DNA from: Amphiura filiformis
Lineage: Eukaryota; Echinodermata; Ophiuroidea; Amphilepidida; Amphiuridae
Direction of reading: 5' to 3'
NCBI RefSeq assembly: GCF_039555335.1
Contig: NC_092642.1
Span: 14,971,208-15,035,207, forward strand
DNA length: 64,000 nucleotides
Shown one piece after another: positions 5,108 through 64,000 of this stretch. The first letter of the stretch is position 1, and each line of letters starts with the position of its first letter. A program made the translations under genes and the position numbers. A model generated the notes under the pieces. The model saw only the letters and a list, made by a program, of their open reading frames with translations. It had not been told where the DNA came from and did no database searches.

Positions 5108-5312
5108 TTAGAATAAATTGGAAACCAAATTAATTCGTCAGCCAAGTATAGCTTCTCTCAAATCGGGCTCAATGGTCTGATATTATTGTAATCGGTTTTG
5201 ACAGGTTTATGAGCCGTGACCTTGGAATAAACAACAATTGTCGAGCTAAAAATGCAATGTCATTTGACAAATCATGCACTGATGCCCGATGTACATGTAT
5301 GTGTACATAGAC
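5108..5312 (+). repeat. dispersed repeat R5, empty-site copy
   Basis: The block from gaaaccaaattaattcgtc through gtaatcggttttgacagg to the aatgcaatgtcattt segment is paralogous to 17865-18345. In that second copy a 258-bp element sits between cacaatgg and tatgatatt. Here the corresponding sequence (ctcaatggtctgatatt near 5168) is uninterrupted, so this copy is the pre-insertion reference. Confidence 0.7.
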
Positions 5313-5396
5313 CAAACAACAGAGCTGATATTACCACTAAGACTTCACAAAGAGTAATGCAGTCGTTATAAATACGTCTATAGCTTCAGAACTATT

Positions 5397-7770
5397 AGTT
5401 AGGGGGAAAAGTTCACTTTGGTGACCACTCTCTGGCTAGTAAGGTTTGACGATTGATTCGACTTCTATGGACCATTTAGAAAAAAATAGCCACCATGTCC
5501 CTCGCGAAAATCCCGGCATTTTTCGCTAGAGGCCAAAATCAAAATGGCCGCCACCACCATTTTGAAAATTTAAGTTTTGAACCAGAGCACCTATAATCAT
5601 GCACAAAGACAGTTTTTCGGATATGTCAGTACAAGGATTCCGATTCTGACATTAGTTTGACATTACGGCATCATTTTCACCCAGAAATCCAAGATGGTGG
5701 CCGGCACCATCTTGAAAAATTTAATTATGAACAAGAGGACCTTAAATCGTGTACAAAGACACTTTTTTGGATAAGTCGACCACAAGGATTTCAAATTTGA
5801 CATTACTTTGACATTACGAACTCATATTTCCAAGATGGTGGCCGCCGGCGCCATCTTGAAAATAATAAGTTTTGAACCAGATTACCTAAAATCGTGTACA
5901 AAGACACTTTTTCCGGTAAGTCGACCTCAAGAAATCCGAATCTGACATTAATTTGACGTTACAAAATATTTTTTGCCCAGAAATCCAAGATGGCCCCATT
6001 TGGTAGAGCGTAAATGTGATTTTTGAATGAGAGCAGAAGCATAAGTGTGTCATTTCCGCCTTATCTGGGGTTCATGTCTCTTATATGGGGTTTCAACTGC
6101 CCTATCCTGGGTTTACATCCCTTATCTAGGGATAAGGCGCCTTATCTGTGGTTTAGACGGCCTTATCCTGGGTTTACGTTCCTTACCTGTGGCTAAGATG
6201 CCTTAACCTTAGCATATCGCAGTCTAAACCCAGATAAGGCATATAAACCCCAGATAATGCGCCGTAACCCCAGATAAGCGACGTAGACCCCAGATAAAGC
6301 AGTCTAAACCCCAAATAAGGCGCCTTAACCCTAAATAAGGAACATAAACCCCAGAAAAGGCATCTAAACCCCACATAAGGTGCCTTAACTCTAGATAAGG
6401 GTTGTTAATCCCAGATAAGGGCCGTAAACCTCAGATAAGGCATCTAAACCCAAGTTAAGGCGCCTTAACCCCAGATAAGAGACGTAAACTCAGATATGGC
6501 AGTCTAAACCCCAGATAAGGCGCCGTCTGGGGTTTACTTCTCTTATATTAGGTTTATGTTCCTTATTTATGGTTAAGGCGCCTTATTTGGGGTTGGGACT
6601 GGTTTATCTGAGGTGTACGTCCCTTATCTGGGGTTACGGCGCCTTATCGGGGGTTTAAACTGTCATATATAAGTTTACGTCTATCTGGGGTTAAGGCGCC
6701 TTATCTTGGGTTTAGATGTCTTATCTGAGGTTTACGACCCTTATCTGGGGTTAACGACCCGTATCTAGAGTTTGGGCACCTTATGTGGGGTTTAGATGCC
6801 TTATCTTAGGTTTATGTTCCTTATTTAGGGTTAAAGCGCCTTATTTGGGGGTTGGACTGCTTTATCGACGGTCTACGTCCCTTATCTGGGGTTACGGCGC
6901 ATTATCTGGGGTTTAGATGCCTTATCTGGGTTTAGACTGCGATATGCTAAGGTTAAGGCATCTTAGCCACAGGTAAGGAACGTAACCCAGGATAAGGCCG
7001 TCTAAACCACAGGTAAGGCGCCTTATCCCTAGATAAGGGATGTAAACCCAAGATAAGGCAGTTTAAACCCCATATAAGGGACATGAACCCCAGATAAGGC
7101 GGAAATGACACATTTATGCTTCTGCTTTCATTCAAAAATCACATTTACGCTCTACCAAATGGGGGCCATCTTGGATTTCTGGGCAAAAATTATTTTGTAA
7201 CGTCAAATTAATGTCAGATTCGGATTTCTTGGGGTCGACTTACCGGAAAAAGTGTCTTTGTACACGATTTTAGGTAATCTGGTTCAAAACTTATTTTTTT
7301 CAAGATGGCGCCGGCGGCCACCATCTTGGATTTCTGGGTAAATATGAGTTCGTAATGTCAAAGTAATGTCAAATTTGAAATCCTTGTGGTCGACTTATCC
7401 AAAAAAGTGTCTTTGTACACGATTTAAGGTCCTCTTGTTCATAACTAAATTTTTCAAGATGGTGCCGGCCACCATCTTGGATTTCTGGGTGAAAATGATG
7501 CCGTAATGTCAAACTAATGTCAGAATCGGAATCCTTGTACTCGACATATCCGAAAAGTGTCTTTGTGCATGATTATAGGTGCTCTGGTTCAAAACTTAAA
7601 TTTTCAAAATGGTGGTGGCGGCCATTTTGATTTTGGCCTCTAGCGAAAAATGCCGGATTTTCGCGAGGACATGGTGGCTATTTTTTTCTAAATGGTCCAT
7701 AGAAGTCGAATCAATCGTCAAACCTTACTAGCCAGAGAGTGGTCACCAAAGTGAACTTTTTCCCCTAACT
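5397..7770. mobile_element. 2.4 kb foldback element with minisatellite core
   Basis: A very long inverted repeat. The left end reads agttagggggaaaagttcac and the right end is its near-exact complement. Flanks actatt (5391-5396 and 7771-7776) look like a 6-bp target duplication. Each arm has three to four units of about 140 bp with ccaagatggtgg, gtacaaagacac and ttgacatta. The centre, about 6050-7110, is a tandem array of about 21-bp units built on ccttatctggggttta. Its polarity flips near 6205, 6530 and 6950, giving nested palindromes. The minus-strand open frames here only read the minisatellite. No transposase is encoded, so the element depends on another one or is replicated passively. Confidence 0.85.
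6050..7110. repeat. about 21-bp minisatellite with alternating polarity
   Basis: Units of the form (c)cttatctggggttta and aaccccagataaggcgcc repeat roughly fifty times with drift. Blocks read in the plus sense at 6060-6200, minus at 6205-6530, plus at 6531-6945 and minus at 6950-7110. Many unit joins contain the self-complementary ggcgcc. This is the core of the foldback element at 5397-7770. Confidence 0.85.
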
Positions 7771-7804
7771 ACTATTGATCGTATTAGTATTTACAATATG
7801 TTAA

Positions 7805-9001
7805 GGACGTACTACGCCCATATATTGGTTTGATTGGTCTAAAAAAATATTTTTTTCATTTATAGCTAGGCGATATATGCACGGATCATGTGAAATAAAA
7901 AGGTGCTTTTAAACCATTGTATAGTAAGTCATTTTAGCCCTATATATTTTTTGTTTACTGTATCCTAGTTACCCAGATGCGTGTTTCATAACAAACCATA
8001 ATTTATTCTTTGCAACATGTTCAAGTAGGGTACATGAATAGAATAGAATACATTAAATCCTTTGTTATACTCTCTATAGAAATTCTAGTGGTATATGCAA
8101 AATATATAACACTGAATAAATTAAATAAACACTTACACAATGGATGCATAGTCATTAGTCAAGTTAATACTATAATGTGTTGTTAGGAGAGGAAAAAGCT
8201 ATTAGGTCACCGTATGTCAGGTTATAGGTCAATTGGTTCAGGTCAAATTTAAGCATCAATTTTGAATACACATGTGAGAGTCTGTGATATCAGAATGAGG
8301 AATAATTTTGATATTCTGTCTTTAACTGGATATATATCGAGAAGTGCAAGATGGATATACTAATATACCTTGGGGTGTAAATAGTGAGTACAATTTAGAA
8401 TGCCTAGTTGAGATGGATTTCACAAATAAATATAAAATAGTTACCAAAATCACAAAAGTTAAGCTTACGGAAAACTACCCAATATGGTGGTATAGGTGAC
8501 AAGAAATACAATTGTTTTCAACATTGCTGTAGTATGGTTGTGGTAACCTGTTACCTGTGGCTTAATTAAGTTTCAGTGAAATAATGTCGCAAGTTAAAAA
8601 TACAAAATATAGCTCAACATTGAAAATAGAAGCATTTTAACCAGTTCCTTTTTTGATAGTTGTGAAGCATCAAGTTCATGAAGTCATAAAAGAAATCAGG
8701 AACCACTTATTCCCATTTTACATATCAACTTTATTTCCCTAACGTGTTAGCAACACATATCCAAAATTTTAACGAAATCCGTTGATAGTAAGCTTTCCAA
8801 AATGAAGTGAATTTAGATCATCAGTGATGTACCACACTTTGGCTTCTACTATTAAAAGCATGTAAGCTACGTTGATACCGATGCCACCAATAAAACGAGA
8901 AGATTTGCCCCTTCATTTTGCATACCACTTTGTCCAATTTTTTTTGTAATTTCTTCACAAAATGCAAAAAATGCAAAAAAAATCAATGGGTGTAGTACCC
9001 C
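7805..9001 (+). mobile_element. TTAA-flanked element, full-length (1.2 kb)
   Basis: TTAA lies on both sides (7801-7804 and 9002-9005). The inverted ends are gtactacgcccata at the left and tgggtgtagtacccc at the right. TTAA duplications are typical of piggyBac-type elements. Related ends occur at 11671 and 15057, and a reverse-orientation copy lies at about 49854-50635. No transposase frame is present, so it is non-autonomous. Confidence 0.7.
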
Positions 9002-27796: not shown

Positions 27797-28633
27797 CACG
27801 TCCTGTGTCACAATTTTGAATAGCACACATTTGTGTATTATAATACATATGCACTGGGGATATTCATTAATAGTCTAATATCAGCTTTGACACCTCTACT
27901 GCAATCCAGGATACAAATAAAACCCAGAAGAAATATTATGAATGTATGCTTTCATTTTCCACTATGGGTGTTAAAATTGTCCGTCTGTCACGGAAAAACA
28001 ACAAAAAGTTGTTTATTTTCTATATTGTAACATATTGTTTGTTCAAAACTTAATTCCTCCTGTCTCCTATCAAGTTGGCATCATATAAAAAAAGTAAAAT
28101 TGTTCCCCAATATTTAGTGAAGAAATTATACCACCCACAAATCTGTCCCGTCTGTCACTATTGTCCCGTCAGTCACGTTTATGTCCCGTCTGTCACGTTC
28201 ATATCTAGGCGGTCATTATCACTTTTGTTCAAATTGGAGGCAAATATTGTATATTATTGTACAATGATATTTATTTTACATTTTTTTACACATTTAATAT
28301 GTGAGATGTGCAAGATATGAATAGACGTGACATAAACGTGACTGACGGGACATAAACGTGACTGACGGGACATAAACGTGACTGACGGGACATAAACGTG
28401 ACTGACGGGACATAAACGTGACTGACGGGACAAACAACTTTTAAGACGGACAATTTTAACACCCATAGTGGGAAATGAAAGCATACATTCATAATATTTC
28501 TTCTGGGTTTTATTTGTATCCTGGATTGCAGTAGAGGTGTCAAAGCTGATATTAGACTATTAATGAATATCCCCAGTGCGTATGTATTATAATACACAAA
28601 TGTGTGCTATTCAAAATTGTGACACAGGACGTG
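27797..28633. mobile_element. foldback MITE with 20-bp minisatellite core
   Basis: Arms 27797-27988 and 28443-28633 are near-identical inverted copies (cacgtcctgtgtcacaattt, cctctactgcaatccagg). Between them are tgtcccgtctgtcac units in one orientation (28143-28205) and a perfect array of a 20-bp unit, cataaacgtgactgacggga, in the other (28325-28431). Minisatellite units at the hairpin centre parallel the element at 5397-7770. The two open frames MYYNTYALG... are arm copies, not genes. Confidence 0.85.
28325..28431 (+). repeat. 20-bp tandem array, about 5.4 copies
   Basis: Unit cataaacgtgactgacggga is repeated without a single mismatch, which implies recent amplification. Confidence 0.9.
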
Positions 28634-31884: not shown

Positions 31885-32093
31885 GTTACTTTCAAGTAGA
31901 TGTGTAACTACTTGAGAATAAAGGACTATGAATAGGTGCGACAGGATAACCTACGGGATTATCTCAAGGATATAATTCCGTTCTTCCTCCTTCTTTTTCA
32001 ACTTTCCTGGGTATATATATATGGTATATGAATATAAAACGACTAGGAATTCCTGCTATCATGGTTTATTATTATTATTTCATTGGTTCATTA

Positions 32094-33438
32094 GGCTGAG
32101 TTCACATAGAAGTATACGGTATACGGTATTCGCTATACGAAATACGCTCATTCATTCAGGCTGAGTTCATATAGGAGTATACTATGTGAACTCAGCCTGA
32201 TCGAATGAGCGTATTTCATATAGCGAATAGCGAGTTGTCAGTTTACCCATTTTCTTCGTCTTATCAAATGCTTGTAACTTTACTTCTTGAGGTCACATTG
32301 CATTCAATGAGGTGTCATAATGTGCAGAATTAGATAGTGCATCTATTAAAAAAATAAATTTGCCCACGTATGGTTTAGGTTTTTAAAATTTGGACGGTAT
32401 ACGCTGCACTAAAATCGAACATGCGCGATTCCCACTATACTATACTATATGCAGGTATACGGCCTTTTCGAATAGCTCTTATGTGACCCGGTACTATGAA
32501 ATTACCTTGCTAGATTTAATCTATACGCGTGCACCTGCAAAACGTGCATCGTATACCCGAATAGTATACTTCTATGCGGTCGTAGCCTTATGTGACCCGG
32601 TACTATCTGCGTGTTTCTACTGAGGGCCAAATTCCGTGCCATGCCGTGCCGTGCCGTGCCGGGTCATACCGGGTAACAAGCCCAGTAGAAACGATCTGGG
32701 TAATCGGTTGCCGTGTCATGCCGGGTCATGTGCTCGCCTTTCGTGATCCACCTCTTGAGGTGGATCATGCCGGGTCAAAGCGTGTAACCCGCGCAGTAGA
32801 AACGAGCCGTGTCATCGGTTGCCGGGTCGAGGTCATGCGTGTTGCAAAAATAACGCGATTTATATCATTTCTACTTGTACAGTATAGGGCCTAGGCCTAT
32901 AATGTAGTTCTTTCTGATATTATATACACTGGCCACATGTGTGACTCGCATGAACTTGATGAAGTAAAATGGATATGACTTTACTTAGTCTAGGCCTACT
33001 TCTTTATAGTTAATGAGTTGGTTATATTTTGGCTGTAAATTAATTATCATAATAGCCAATTACTAAATCCACTGGTAAACTAATGCAATTTGGATTTTAC
33101 GAAAACATTAAATTGTGATTGTAGGTCATATGCCATGAGCTGCCATGCGTGGACATTTAAATTTAGGATAGGCCTACAACCGTCAAATCTGTTTTCCGTA
33201 CTTCCGGTTTACAGGAAAAAATGCCGTGCATCGTGCGAGACACGGCTTTCTGGTCTCAGTAGAAACAAGCCGGGTAACGGTGGCCGGATTATGATCGGTA
33301 TTTTGTGCCCGGAAAATAGCGGGTCAAAAATCCGTACGCTCAGTATAAACACGCTGTATGAAATTGCCTTGCTCATTTAAGCTATACGCAAAACGTGCAC
33401 CGTATACCCGAATAGTATACTTCTATGTGAACGCAGCC
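32094..33438. mobile_element. PIF/Harbinger-like element with nested insert
   Basis: The ends are ggctgagttcacatagaagt and cttctatgtgaacgcagcc. TTA lies on both sides (32091-32093, 33439-33441). The empty paralogue at 30357-30480 shows that a single TTA was present before insertion. A 3-bp TTA/TAA duplication and GGC-type termini fit PIF/Harbinger. It shares its sequence, inverted, with the element at 35106-35711. Its apparent extra length comes from a second insert at 32607-33356. Confidence 0.8.
32604..33359. mobile_element. nested terminal-inverted-repeat insert (750 bp)
   Basis: It begins CTGCGTGTTTCTACTGAG (32607) and ends CTCAGTATAAACACGCTG (33356), 16 of 18 bases matching as inverted repeats. 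TAT occurs on both sides. The sister element at 35106 is continuous at this point (ggtactatggaattgcc, read on the opposite strand). Internally it has ccgtgccgtgcc repeats and a perfect hairpin gatccacctcttgaggtggatc. Confidence 0.75.
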
Positions 33439-33476
33439 TTATATCCCATATAATCATAGTTGTTTATTTGAATTCG

Positions 33477-34129
33477 TTAAGGGAAGGGGTATGAACGTTT
33501 GGACAGTATTTATTGTGGGACATTAGAGCACATCAGACATATCGAATTGCATTCTGAATACGAAGAATGTCCTTCTGATATCAAATAATTTTGATTTTTT
33601 GAAATTCGCAATGTAATACACATTTTATGGCAAATCATTAAAAATTGATATTTTGTATATTTAACAGTACTTGAAGTAAACTTTATAAATCTGATGATTT
33701 ATACTTAAAGTGTATGTATGTGGGATGAAAAGCCGACGATCAATTGAAAATTTTGACCTTTCGTATTGAAGATATGAATTTTTTCCCAAAACACCAAAAA
33801 AAATTGTCTTTTTGGATATCTTCAATATGAAAAGTCAAAATTTTCAATTGATCGTCGGCATTTCCTCCCAGCTACATACACTTTAAGAATATATCATTAG
33901 ATTTATAAAATTTATTTCGAGGACTGTTATATATCAAAAATTTGTAAAATATCAAATTTTAATAATTTGTCATAAAATTTGTATTATATCGTAATTTCAA
34001 AAATGAAAATTATTTGATATCAGAAAGACATGCTTCGTATTCAGAATGCAATTCGATACGTCTGAGGTGCTCTCATGTCCCACAAAAATACTGTCGAAAC
34101 GCCATAAACGCTCATTCTAGATCCCTTAA
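33477..34129. mobile_element. TTAA-flanked hairpin MITE, copy B
   Basis: TTAA at 33477-33480 and 34126-34129. The inverted halves share cagtatt, gagcacatcagacatatcg and tgaaaattttgacctttcg. Same family as 18653-19316. Its right TTAA is also the left TTAA of the next element. Confidence 0.85.
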
Positions 34130-34769
34130 GGGCTTTGGTAACAACGTTTGCACAGTATTTTTGTGGACATTGAGAGCACATCAGACATGTCGATTTGTAT
34201 TCTGAATACGATGAATGTCTTTCTGATATCAAATAATTTTCATTTGTATTTTTAATTGGCGATATAATACAAATTGTATGGCAAATTATAACAAATTAAT
34301 ATTTTTGTTATTTTTCATATTTAACAGTCCTCGAATAAAATTTATAAATCTAATGATATGTACTTAAAGTGTATGTAGCTGGGAGGAAAAGCCGACGATC
34401 ATTTGAACATTTTGACATTTTGTATTTTCCCAAAAATACCTCATTTTTTAGGTGTTTTTTAGAGAAAAAAATCTAAATCTTCAATACGAAAGTCAAACTT
34501 TTCAAATGATCGTCGGCTTTTCCTCCAGCTACATACACTTTAAGTAAATATCATTAGATTTATAAATTTTACTTTGAGGACTGTTAAATGTCAAAAATAC
34601 CAATTATTAATAATTTGCCATAAAATCTGTATTATATCGCGAATTTCAAAATATCAAAATTGTTTGATACCAGAAGGACATTCTTCGTATTCAGAATGCA
34701 ATTCGATATGTCTGATGTGCTCTCGTGTCCCACAAAATACTGTGCAAACGTTGTTACCAGAGCCCTTAA
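34126..34769. mobile_element. TTAA-flanked hairpin MITE, copy C
   Basis: TTAA at 34126-34129 and 34766-34769. The ends gggctttggtaacaacgttt and aacgttgttaccagagccc are inverted copies. The interior is related to copy B but the outermost 20 bp differ, so it is a distinct subfamily inserted at the same TTAA. Confidence 0.85.
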
Positions 34770-35102
34770 CTTGAGACCAATTTCTCTACTCGTTTGTACA
34801 CAGTGGATCTGATTTTTGTTTTTGTTTTTTGTCTTTTGGGGGGGGGGTTGTTTTTGGTCATTCTGCAAATTAGCTAGTGTCAGTGGGTTGATTATACATA
34901 CACACAGGTAATTTTTTATCAATTCTCAACATTAGCGCCTATTGTTAGAATGACAATGACAGAAAGCGCGTCATTATCATAAACCAGTAACCACCTACCA
35001 AACCTACCCTCCAATCATCAAACAATAAAACAGCAACGTATTACTGTATTTAACAATGCACAATAAACGATTAATAATTAGTTCAACTAAAGGTTGCAGC
35101 TT
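34770..35102. other. intergenic, nothing recognised
   Basis: Contains a GT-rich stretch with a nine-G run near 34840. No gene or repeat pair. Confidence 0.4.
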
Positions 35103-35105
35103 TAA

Positions 35106-35711
35106 GGCTGCGTTCACATAGAAGTATACTATTCGGGTATACGGTGCACGTTTTGCAGGTGCACGCGTATAGCTCAAATCGAGCAAGGCAATTCCATAGT
35201 ACCGGGTCACATAAGGCTACGATCACATAGAAGTATACTATTCGGGTATACGGTGCACGTTTTGCAGGTGCATGCGTATAGCCTAAATCGGGCAAGGTAA
35301 TTTCATAGTACCGGGTCACATAGGCACTATTCGAAAAGGCCGTATACCTGCGTATAGTATAGTATAGTGGGAATCGTGCATGCTCGATTTTAGTGCAGCG
35401 TATACCGTCCTAATTTTAAAACTAAACCATATGTGGGTAAATTCAGTTTTTTGTAATAGATGCACTATCTAATTCTGCACATTATGACACCTCATTCAAT
35501 GCAATGTGACCTCAAGAAGTAAAGTTACAAGCATTTGATTAGACGAAGAAAATTGGTAAACTGACCTACTCGCTATTCATTATATACGAAATACGCTCAT
35601 TCGATCAGGCTGAGTTCACATAGTATACGCCTATATGAACTCAGCCTGATCGAATGAGCGTATTTCGTATAGCGAATACCGTATACCGTATACTTCTATG
35701 TGAACGCAGCC
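35106..35711. mobile_element. PIF/Harbinger-like MITE
   Basis: Termini ggctgcgttcacatagaagt and cttctatgtgaacgcagcc, with TAA on both sides (35103-35105, 35712-35714). The first 230 bp include a tandem duplication of the about 115-bp end segment (actattcgggtatacggtgc near 35126 and 35238). It is an inverted relative of 32094-33438, and between them sit the two TTAA MITEs. Confidence 0.8.
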
Positions 35712-36039
35712 TAAGAGCATTTTAATACAGATAGCACTATAGAATTAGAATTCGCCCCGACCGAATAACATTATTTTGACAAAAGAACAAGATATAAAGA
35801 ATATTGGACTAAACAACCTTCAGAATAAAGAACCGTCGGACTTATAGTGGATTTACTTCTATAGTAAATGCACAAATTAAATTTCAATGTTAGTAACGAT
35901 TATTTATATGTCTCAGAAACGAGCCGCTTATGTTAGTAATATAATAAAATATGTGCACATCCGATAATATATTTAAATATAGGCTATATTTTATCTCACG
36001 CGGAAAAAAACACAATCGAATGGCCAGGCAGTTCGATCA

Positions 36040-37035
36040 TTATTCAATATTTGTGTTATGTGTATTCATTGATGTTTCTGGCTCAATTTGGTCCGGTTTC
36101 CATTTTCCACAAAACAGAATCTTTCGATAAGCATCTCTGAAATGCTTGTTCATCACGCCGTATATGAGAGAATTTAACGAGCTATTGGTGTGAGACAAAA
36201 CTGCGGCTAAACGATAGACGTGGTCAGGGATGGTGTCACCAAAATCAACAACAATCAAAAGTGTGTACAATGTCCAACAAAAAGCAAAAGTGACGAATAT
36301 TGTGAATAGCATTTTGAGAAGTTTGATATCTCTTTCAGGTCGTTTCTTCTCAGATGAAGAGGCAGCATGTCGAACTCTCAAAGAACTTTGTCGTAATGCC
36401 CAAAATATCGCGGCGTAGCAGACAATGATCAGAACCATCGGCATCGAAATAAAGACAATCGCCGTGAACAAAACATGACTAAAACTTGCCAATCTATCGC
36501 AGGAACATTGAAATATTTTTTGATCAAAAGAATGCCCGCCCCATCCGAAGAAGTTGCTGAAATCTGCAACGATGCAAATGATCCAAATTATTACAGCATA
36601 AGCTATTGTTTTTCGCCAAGTGAAAATGGTTTTGTAATATTGTTGCTTACATACGCAAACATAACGATTGATCGCTATGGCTCCAATGTTCCACAGAGAA
36701 CAGGTACAGCTTACGAAACACAAACTACCAATTGCAAAACATAATTCTGGTATTTTGGAGTACAATCCCTTGTCTATCAAAATCGCGTAGGCTGTTACAG
36801 GCTCCATCAATGTTGTAACACACATATCAGCGAAGGCGAGAGACAGAACGAAGACATTTGCGGGTGTGCGAAGCTTTCTCGTCGTTAACACCGCAAGAAT
36901 GACCAATGCGTTACCAGTGCTACCTGTTATGCTGATAAACACTCTGTAGATACCAAACATTGTTAACAGCAATGCATCTTCTTTGCTTGAGGCAATTATG
37001 TGATAAGACGATTTGGTATCGTTGTTATCCTCCAT
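36040..37035 (-). CDS. melatonin-receptor-like class A GPCR, single exon
   Basis: An intact 331-residue frame with seven hydrophobic segments at roughly 24-51, 59-80, 98-125, 142-160, 187-212, 238-262 and 272-293. Visible class A landmarks: GN in TM1 (Asn42), LAFAD in TM2 (Asp70), Cys99 for the extracellular disulphide with Cys177 or Cys179, NRY (123-125) in place of DRY, Trp151 in TM4, FAFCW (250-254) in TM6, NSLIY (288-292) in TM7, then an amphipathic helix 8 and Cys309. NRY and a TM7 motif lacking proline (NAxxY) are known traits of melatonin receptors, and RKLRTPANVFVLSLAFAD fits that group. The usual TM6 proline after CW is leucine here. An N-glycosylation sequon lies at Asn5. The ATG has A at -3 and G at +4. 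Family membership is moderately sure; the ligand is unknown. Confidence 0.88.
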   Translation of the reverse strand: MEDNNDTKSSYHIIASSKEDALLLTMFGIYRVFISITGSTGNALVILAVLTTRKLRTPANVFVLSLAFADMCVTTLMEPVTAYAILIDKGLYSKIPELCFAIGSLCFVSCTCSLWNIGAIAINRYVCVCKQQYYKTIFTWRKTIAYAVIIWIICIVADFSNFFGWGGHSFDQKIFQCSCDRLASFSHVLFTAIVFISMPMVLIIVCYAAIFWALRQSSLRVRHAASSSEKKRPERDIKLLKMLFTIFVTFAFCWTLYTLLIVVDFGDTIPDHVYRLAAVLSHTNSSLNSLIYGVMNKHFRDAYRKILFCGKWKPDQIEPETSMNTHNTNIE

Positions 37036-37089
37036 GATCTACTATAAAAACGAGTATTTCTTGAGAATGACGAATATATAAAAGTATAT

Positions 37090-41639: not shown

Positions 41640-41760
41640 CAGCAGTGGGCTGTGTGATGGCTTCTCCTTCACAATGTTCTGCCAACTGCCTCGGTTGGTT
41701 GTTAGCCTGCTCATTTCTGTTAGGTGAATCTCGCCACAGCTTTTCAACATACTTCTGGAA
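41640..41760 (-). pseudogene. LINE 3'-end coding relic
   Basis: The minus strand reads LTTNRGSWQNIV, like the 'DRxxWRxIV' motif that closes many LINE polymerase frames. It abuts a reverse-transcriptase fragment in the opposite orientation at 41761, so at least two pieces are joined here. Confidence 0.4.
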
Positions 41761-42440
41761 CTAGTTATATCCTCAGCACTAGAAAATGAAGACGCAGGAG
41801 CAGTTATCTCTGGCTTCAAAATAAATAATCTTAGATTTGCGGATGATATAGTTCTAATAGCAGAATCACCAAAAGAACTCCAAACCCTGGTAAACAAAGC
41901 TTACAACGAAAGCAGCAACTATGGACTCAAAATAAATATTGCCAAAGTTCAAGCCATTACCAAATATGACCACAGACTGGATATTACAATTGGAGGAGAT
42001 AAGCTGGAACAAGTAAAATCATTTGCGTATCTGGGCGGCACCATGGATATGGGACATGTGAGGAAGATGTGAGGCACCGAATCAGCAAAGCAGTAGGTGC
42101 AGTTCAAAGTCTCCACAGCATCTGGAAAGCAAAAGACATCAAGCAAGACACCAAATTACAATTGTACCAAACACTCATCCTCTCTATATTACTATATGGA
42201 TCAGAGACCTGGACCCTCAGAAAGCAGGACGTAAAAATACGTAACCAGGCTATCCGGCAAACCCTAGGCAAAGAAAACACAGTTTTAGACACTATCTCAG
42301 AAAGAAAACTGAAGTACTTTGGCCACATTAAAAGGATGGAGACAAACAGATACCCAAATATAACAATTGAGGGCAAAACACATGTAACGAGACCAAGAGG
42401 AAGACCAAGTAAAAGATGGCTGGAGTGTGCTAAAGCATAA
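41761..42440 (+). pseudogene. non-LTR retrotransposon reverse transcriptase, 3' part, frameshifted
   Basis: The first frame (41761 to about 42050) contains the RT catalytic block LRFADDIVLIAES, with FADD at 41836-41847, and later SFAYLGGT. At about 42045 the frame shifts: the continuation TCEEDVRHRISKAVGAVQSL runs in the next frame to the stop at 42440. It carries LLYGSETWTLRKQ, the FGHIKRM block and RPRGRPSKRW, all usual at the C-terminal end of LINE polymerases. The 5' half with endonuclease is absent. A dead, 5'-truncated copy; the exact clade is not determined. Confidence 0.85.
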
Positions 42441-54523: not shown

Positions 54524-57500
54524 GTTGGTACCTGTGTATGAATGAAATAAGATGTATAATTTTATAACATGTATATATAATATAAGCTTACATAGTTACG
54601 GCCTTTGTAATGGAGCAAGGGTTAAGAACTCCCACTTTCTTATATCTCGACCCACAGGCTTAGAGCAAAATTAATTGTTATATTGGTTGTTGGGTGGCAT
54701 TGTTTGCTTCTTTCCAATTCTTGCTATTTTTCTTCCTGTACTATGCCAGTATGCTTTTAGGCTATAATTAGCCTGGCTTGTGCTTGGGTCGGGACCATGG
54801 ATCTTCCATCGACCCAAGCGGGTACGTGTCCCTTTTTTTAAAAGGTCACTTTAAATAGAAAACACTGGTGTGTGTTCAGCTGTGTGTTGGGGTGGGCGTT
54901 GCGGGTATGTGGTGGGGGTGCGTCAGGTTAGTGGATGTGGTAGTATTTTGACTGTAACTGCACAGTTCTTTGTGTGTATATTAGATAATATCCTATACAG
55001 TGAAGATAATTATATTTTAATTCTGTTTTCTTTCAACAGAGATGCCATGTAAGCAAGTACCAGTACTATTCATAGATGGTCAACCCCTTACTCAAGCTAA
55101 TGCCATAGCTCGCTATGTAGCCAAGGAAACAGGTGAACATTACCAGGGGTTTGTTTGTTAAATCAGTTAGTCCTTTCTCGTTATCTAAAAGGTGAGAGCT
55201 AATATTGTACCGTCCAAAAAGGATTGTCAAGATGCAAGTCTTACGAAATGGCATTTTCGCATTTTCCTGAAAGAAGTTCAAATTTATAGAATTTGGCCTA
55301 GTTGTGCCAGCTTGGCGTAGACTGGGATGGGGGTAGTGCGAGCCACAATCCTCTCCCATTTATGGGTCGTTGTTGAGTTCCTACGGGGAGATCATTTAAA
55401 ACAAACAAACTTGTTTCGATTGGTTTTATTTGTGTACGATAGAGTGGGAGGGGTGTGTATATATGTGTGTGGGTGGTATTGTTATGTGGGGTGTGCACGT
55501 GTCCTTTTCTTGACCTTTTCACACAACCCACACAATTTGTTTGTCAGTTTGACCAAAGTCGGTTAGTATTCAAAACAACTTCATTATCATCTTTGAAGTT
55601 ATAAAATTCACAAACCTACTACAACTTGGGTAAATCAAACAAAAATCTCTTCAAATGATCTACCCGTAGGAACTCGACCACCGTGCGACGGGCCATAATA
55701 GGACAGGTTTACAGCTCGTACTATCCTCATCCCCGTTCTACATGAACGTTCAGCTGGCACAACTTAGGACAAACTTTTACGTCTTTCAGGAGATACCATT
55801 TTGTAATACTTGCGTCTGGACAATCCCTTTTGGACGGTACAGTAATTGGTCTTGTATTTTGGGTAACGAGAAAGGACTAACTGATTCCAGTATCTAACAC
55901 CACTAAGGGCTAGGCATACCTTTACTCAATGTAGAAGAAAAATGTAAAATTAAGCACTTCTCACAACAAATTGCACAGAAACAATATCAAATGTGCACAC
56001 CAAAGTAGCTGTTACTCATTATTATGCGAATGATTTCCCTTTTTTAGGTTTATATGGACAAACCAATTTACAATGTGCTCGCATTGATGCAGTGATGGAT
56101 GTATGCAACGACTGGCGTTACTCCTTGGGTAAATGGTTTTCAACAGAAGACCCCGAAGAGCAAGTAATTAAAACAATATATATATATTTCACGTAGCATT
56201 GCTAAATACTTAAAACAAGGAAAGAACAAACTCAAGTATGCCTAGCATTAAAAGTGTTTTCATATTATCAACAGCTGTCAAGTGCTTTTGTCCAAGACTC
56301 ATCAAAAATAATGCAACATGTTTCCTGCCCAGGCAACATGGTATCCCACAATGCAATGCTCTAATTCAAATAAATTATATGTTCTTTCTTGGTTAAGAGT
56401 GATATAATCAGTTGGTTAGGGGGTTATACCCCGTTTTAGGGTTGGTTTGCCGAATTGGGAAGAGTTTCAAAGGCTTAGGTTGCCTGCGCAGGAAACATGT
56501 TTTTAATGCCCTTCGGAAGAGAGCGGTCAAGTGAGTGATAGTCACTAAAAGTTGCATTCGATTCACACAGGGAATTCTGCAGGCCATTTCGTGCCCTTCC
56601 TTACTAAAACACCAAAGTGCGAATATTTCCAAATATCTAAATTAGCTAAAAATTAAGGACATGTTACAAAACTATATATTCTAGAATTTCAAAGAGTACA
56701 CAAAATATTGGCCGGTTATTTTTTACACAGTGACGTTAACTAGGAAATGCCCTATACCTCTAACATACACTGTTTGTAGAGGTCACACGTCAATGGTGAG
56801 AGCACTGTGTATTGTGTATAGGAAAATGAACAGTAACTGCAGTATGGGGGAAATATTAAGGAATATGTTTTGTGTGGGGGTGTGTGTGTGTGTGACATGC
56901 TGGGAACCCTGTGAATATTGATTATTGTACCTTATTTCCTTATTTATTGTATGTGATTCCACACACCCACAGGAATCATGGGTCAGAGTACTGAGACACG
57001 AAGAAGCGCCCACAGTTTGCATTAATCTTGAGACCCTTTTGAGACAAAACAATGGAGGAGATAGCTACTTTGTCGGTGACACGGTATGACATAAATTTTA
57101 AAAGAATAATTTCTTCAAGAAAATAAATGAAATCGTTTCATAGACCATGTAGGTTATTAATTATATAGATACTTAATCGTTCTTCAAACATTATATTTAT
57201 TATATGGCGAGATACAAGTTTTTCAGAGTATATTCATATTAATCTTAATCGATATCGAAGTCATAACCATCGTCATCATCATAATCATCATCACCATTTC
57301 TTTTTCTTTACATCAACATTCTTCTTATGTTAAACAGATGTGACTTCCATTAATTGTTTCTCGTTTTTAATTATATTTTACAGATAACTGTTGCAGATTT
57401 GTTTGTATTTTGTGATATTCAACTTATCCGGGCCTTTGTAGATGATGTATTAGACAAATATCCCAAAATCTCCGCTTTATTTGACAGAGTGGCGTCTAAT

Positions 57501-59931: not shown

Positions 59932-64000
<4,069 letters not shown>

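Follow-up and report, generated by a model that had tools for sequence, protein, structure and literature searches.

A probable foldback-type transposon with long inverted arms and a direction-switching minisatellite core in Amphiura filiformis

Positions 5397 to 7770 of the window (the whole stretch of 64,000 nucleotides of Amphiura filiformis DNA that was analysed) form a near-palindrome of 2,374 bp, which is probably one inserted copy of a non-autonomous, foldback-type DNA transposon consisting of terminal inverted repeats (TIRs) only. The element was filed as foldback-type by structure only, from the one copy examined. A foldback element had been proposed in an earlier note on this DNA, and this reading is supported by the full-length inverted arms, by the direct repeat that abuts them, and by the lack of any coding capacity found. 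The same note had described a near-palindrome of 2.4 kb. It resolves into a left arm of 1,130 bp (5397–6526, plus strand), a right arm of 1,135 bp (6636–7770, minus strand), and a spacer of 109 bp (6527–6635, plus strand), which contains minisatellite units and has no mirror partner. The long TIRs therefore make up most of the element (2,265 of 2,374 bp).

Both ends of the palindrome are adjoined by the direct repeat ACTATT (5391–5396 on the left and 7771–7776 on the right), and the inverted repeat reaches the very end of the element. When 200,000 pairs of random positions in the window were compared, a direct match of at least 6 bp at two fixed edges occurred with a chance of 0.0006; about three admissible edges raise this value to approximately 0.002 by our own arithmetic. 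The bounding 6-bp duplication claimed earlier is thus present, but the same terminal bases can also be parsed as an element TAGTTAGG..CCTAACTA flanked by a 4-bp CTAT duplication (5392–5395 and 7772–7775), because the left end is preceded by T and the right end is followed by A. By our own reckoning, the 6-bp parse requires fewer coincidences than the 4-bp parse. With 6 bp, the element termini are AGT..ACT. If the region is indeed an insertion, the empty orthologous site would read GAACTATTGAT. The earlier proposal that the structure grew by slippage or strand switching "rather than simple transposition" poses a false choice, since the duplication indicates the insertion of this copy, whatever shaped its arms. 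Nor is there a separate 32-bp terminus, as the identity of the arms continues inward past 32 bp. Recurrence of the terminal 40 bp inside the element did not exceed chance (best score 9, shuffled mean 10.2, with 275 of 300 shuffles scoring at least as high). This recurrence below the shuffled mean gives no sign of extra internal transposase-binding sites of the kind found in Galileo.

From the outside inward, the left arm consists of an outer domain, a set of 145-bp repeats, a short linker, and the minisatellite. The outer domain of 139 bp (5397–5535, plus strand) begins with AGTTAGGGGG and differs from its mirror by one substitution and two single-base gaps; inside the element it matches this mirror only, all other matching stretches being 17 bp or shorter. 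It is followed by tandem repeats of about 145 bp, three of them complete and a fourth beginning at 5983 (5538–5993, plus strand), whose counterparts in the right arm are located at 7166–7633 (minus strand). The arms had been described as made of repeats of about 140 bp, for which we measured a period near 145 bp, with 79–84% identity among the repeats of one arm. Each of the first three repeats opens with a small palindrome, CAARATGG...CCATYTTG, which reads CAAAATGG..CCATTTTG in the first repeat and CAAGATGG..CCATCTTG in the two that follow. Within 5538–5993 and its mirror, the first repeat thus differs from the other two by a paired change on both sides of the small palindrome. The sequence AAGATGG in this palindrome resembles the YY1 site. 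With the 145-bp repeats and the minisatellite, the TIRs carry two kinds of internal tandem repeats.

The minisatellite is arranged in four blocks. Block 1, with the unit CTTATCTGGGGTT..., lies at 6060–6205 (plus strand) and block 2 at 6223–6524 (minus strand); block 3 (6636–6945, plus strand) is the mirror of block 2, and block 4 (6954–7099, minus strand) that of block 1. A script identified 49 units from 6066 on, and one more was recognized by eye at 6060, which agrees with the earlier count of about fifty. The unit length of 21 bp given with that count applies to the minority, because the spacing is 20 bp in 33 of 48 cases and 21 bp in nine. Three unit types of 20–21 bp make up a group of 61 bp. 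The unit direction runs plus (6060–6202), minus (6226–6519), plus (6522–6941), and minus (6965–7098), so that the three flips reported before are real. However, only one flip per arm is independent of the palindrome, because the flip at the centre and the matching of the outer flips follow from a single whole-arm palindrome. Naming one source for the flip within the arm was rejected, since block 1 fits block 2 in two registers to a similar degree (78.6% and 76.0%).

The likeness between the arms allows events to be placed in relative order. The three full 145-bp repeats are 97–99% identical to their mirror partners and 79–84% identical to each other within one arm; the tandem growth therefore predates the likeness of the arms, and arm-wide copying or conversion followed the growth of the 145-bp repeats. 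Of the 13 minisatellite units of blocks 1 and 4, 12 are most closely related to their mirror unit, and the mirror of the thirteenth falls outside the unit list. In block 2, this applies, alone or tied, to 11 of 15 units. A non-mirror unit is nearest in the other four, and copying was therefore not uniform. The arms differ by about 1–8%, including substitutions and a 10-bp indel, and their divergence increases inward. Identity by domain, from the end of the element to 6210, is 99.3, 99.3, 99.3, 98.2, 97.1, and 96.4%. Substitutions were counted at 8 of 671 aligned sites in 5397–6070 versus 24 of 312 in 6211–6525 (Fisher's exact test, P = 4e-7, with some differences adjacent and the sites hence not fully independent).

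The inner block exists in a third version, which is more diverged and is located at 6524–6680, mostly in the spacer and for the remainder in the right arm. Among 32 variable ungapped columns, the third version is the odd one in 21, the left arm in 5, and the right arm in 4, while all three differ in 2. This excess suggests that an inverted minisatellite copy existed before the last arm-wide copying. The "nested palindromes" of the earlier note are accordingly real in the sense of such an older inverted arrangement. The spacer may represent either the loop of a hairpin or what is left of a longer palindrome after the loss of units on its left side.

A transposase or integrase made elsewhere would recognize the matching ends and move the element. 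Each arm would first have been enlarged by tandem duplication, giving the 145-bp units and the 20-bp units in groups of 61 bp; one inversion would then have arisen inside the minisatellite of each arm, and the whole arm would afterwards have been copied or converted into its mirror image. The likeliest trigger would be the pairing of oppositely oriented minisatellite blocks, which could act via self-primed synthesis or via gap repair after excision and would keep the outer arms nearly identical. From this one copy, we favour such arm renewal by fold-back copying or conversion starting at the opposed minisatellite blocks, because the inner boundary of the palindrome falls within a unit (GGCGCCGT ending at 6526 versus ACGGCGCC starting at 6636).

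The mechanism of arm renewal has a strong competitor, to which we give a little less than an even chance: instead of a recent one-step fold-back copying, recurrent gene conversion between the arms of an old palindrome, or repair after excision, may have maintained their likeness. This alternative concerns the mechanism acting on the arms only and is compatible with a transposon. The increase of divergence towards the centre and the clustering of differences, for instance at 6290–6292, suit a conversion that was unequal along the arm, although the same increase could also result from an exchange of minisatellite units after a single copying event. The upkeep of arm likeness is discussed rather than settled in the available parts of the Galileo reports, whose authors propose recombination and conversion (PMC4168063, PMC3573991), drawn by the long TIRs (PMC3573991). 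Strand switching at a hairpin, as suggested in the earlier note, fits the mirror identity, which is well above the identity within an arm, but with one copy it is inseparable from conversion, as is one-time fold-back synthesis from repeated conversion in general. Many copies in one host genome would permit a test of fold-back copying against gene conversion.

As a more general idea, which we put forward as speculative and rather improbable, opposed minisatellite blocks in TIR elements might serve as self-priming hairpins: a strand, broken or nascent, would fold back at the minisatellite, copy the entire arm to its terminus, and rebuild two matching ends for recognition, and repeated rounds would nest palindromes. 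Nine other inverted-repeat elements of the window, picked from the 25 of 62 inverted-repeat pairs that were listed, have 18 inner edges between them, two of which are situated within tandem repeats (P = 0.12). The two edges belong to the right arms of the elements at 27797–28633 and 32091–35714, and their bearing on minisatellite priming is suggestive only. The element at 27797–28633 has arms of 190 bp with 98.9% identity, between which opposed 20-bp minisatellite arrays are situated (28144–28199 and 28318–28452), and the inner edge of an arm falls within the unit-like TGTCCGTCTGTCACG; no target duplication was seen by eye at its arm edges. The element at 32091–35714 (3.6 kb) has inverted arms of approximately 520 bp that are about 93% identical; on its inner side, the right arm ends in tandem repeats of 109 bp, and by eye no clear target duplication was found. 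The window also contains a pair of inverted copies at 2139–2960 and 60903–61708, which are 88% identical over about 820 bp and each carry a tandem duplication of about 165 bp. A partial third copy of this pair lies near 56598–56846.

The near-palindrome contains 25 open reading frames of at least 40 amino acids, the longest with 73. Ten of the 25 were scanned against Pfam, and none matched a family at the cut-off (one weak sub-threshold match, PF09838, E 0.005); with frames of this length, a coding core was rejected. Elsewhere in the window, a frame of 332 amino acids on the minus strand (36040–37038) encodes a rhodopsin-family seven-helix receptor (Pfam 7tm_1, E 1.6e-43). Two overlapping frames are located at 41728–42440. 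The first matches reverse transcriptase (RVT_1, E 2.1e-12) and is, as we assume, of the non-LTR class; the second matches DUF6451 only, below the cut-off. Rfam gave no match at the gathering score within the window.

A second copy of the element was not detected in the 64-kb window (blastn, E 0.01). Four exact patterns, one from the terminus, one from the minisatellite, and two from the 145-bp repeat, had no match in viral contigs, and the left arm had none in phage records (blastn). In prokaryotic contigs, 58 stretches contained the 16-base terminus word, compared with about 120 expected by chance in 257 billion bases by our own arithmetic. When the element was aligned to these 58 stretches (blastn), the 20 matches listed reached at most 20 identical bases in a run of 20 (E 0.006), or 20 of 21 bases at the terminus. 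With fewer stretches than expected and listed matches of at most 21 bp at the terminus, they were dismissed as chance rather than as relatives. Viral, prokaryotic, and phage collections are not expected to contain the host, and these negative results therefore say little about the copy number. A literature search with sequence words of the element returned a single match, an unrelated one on OCT4. Sea urchins have foldback elements known as TU, and a literature search for these yielded the report on Tetris alone.

Which enzyme moved the element bears on a second alternative, namely that it is a terminal-repeat remnant mobilized by an integrase of the Polinton/Maverick type. We consider this unlikely. 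In the available part of the report on them, intact Mavericks of vertebrates carry target duplications of 6 bp, and AGT at the start with ACT at the finish is their commonest pair of ends (PMC8097293); the AGT..ACT termini and the ACTATT on both sides of this one copy resemble them under the 6-bp parse. In contrast, the element ends AGTTAGGG..CCCTAACT, with the terminus AGTTAGGGG, match none of the three end motifs named there, (AGT)2, (AG)3, and (AC)3A, which are vertebrate motifs (PMC8097293). The element is also far shorter, and polymerase, integrase, and capsid genes are absent from it, no open reading frame exceeding 73 amino acids. Three bases and a duplication length carry little weight, moreover, and both are lost under the 4-bp parse.

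That the region is an inverted duplication of local origin or an artefact of assembly instead of a transposon is very improbable: the sequence is single-copy within the 64 kb and long palindromes are known to cause errors in assembly, but the direct repeat abuts the palindrome exactly, the flanks differ (1 kb on the left and 1 kb on the right share nothing above 11 bp at E values up to 1), and the arms, 1–8% different, carry substitutions and a 10-bp indel not expected from a read-through hairpin artefact, all of which argues against an artefact. The flanks themselves are not unique; 5167–5297, 7801–7901, and 7900–8574 match other places in the window at 69–94%.

Inverted arms that are long and nearly identical occur repeatedly in transposon groups unrelated to one another. 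In the probable foldback transposon described here, older tandem repeats within younger mirror arms, together with the diverged central inverted block, provide a relative order of events. The element alone reveals no new system. Two further groups do not fit it. IS3EU/GingerRoot, as far as described in the available part of the source, needs TA..TA ends together with a 6-bp duplication, whereas TA..TA is obtained here only with the 4-bp parse (PMC10045372). Dada, according to the part of its description at hand, inserts in small RNA genes and is devoid of TIRs (PMC3706591), in contrast to the long TIRs and the lack of an Rfam match in the window.

Judged by description only, and from those parts of the literature that were accessible, Galileo appears closest in build to the element. 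Galileo belongs to the P superfamily in Drosophila and includes non-autonomous copies consisting of TIRs only (PMC4168063, PMC3573991). Copy 112, the longest in D. willistoni, comprises 9 kb and nothing but two TIRs, with direct repeats of about 140 bp within them (PMC4168063), and in D. mojavensis the TIRs enlarge both through tandem expansion and through the recruitment of internal sequence (PMC3573991). The likeness thus lies in long, internally repetitive TIRs, TIR-only copies, and direct repeats of about 140 or about 210 bp (PMC4168063, PMC3573991). The target duplications in D. willistoni, however, measure 7 or 8 bp (PMC4168063), compared with 6 (or 4) bp here, and a flipped minisatellite is not among the features described in the accessible parts of the two reports (PMC4168063, PMC3573991). 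Tetris of Drosophila virilis, by its partial description, is likewise an apparently non-autonomous foldback element whose TIR tandem repeats seed satellite DNA, but it has duplications of 8–10 bp and repeats of 220 bp, and its authors suggest that it is a Mutator element (PMC4079207). Tm1, a Mutator/Foldback element of Meloidogyne, similarly possesses composite TIRs of variable length built from many short tandem units, according to the portion of the report that was available (PMC3169594). It differs in its mostly 9-bp duplications, in its units of about 14 bp, and in end motifs of 7 bp that are asymmetric and lie beyond the inverted repeat, whereas the inverted repeat reaches the end here (PMC3169594). 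The duplication of 6 (or 4) bp lies outside the 7–10 bp of Tetris, Tm1, and Galileo. The earlier note did not recognize a described family. The architecture is largely one described already in foldback-type elements such as Galileo, and a relative with a name may exist, while the pattern of direction flips in the core is unusual for this kind of element, which makes it an unusual but recognizable foldback transposon.
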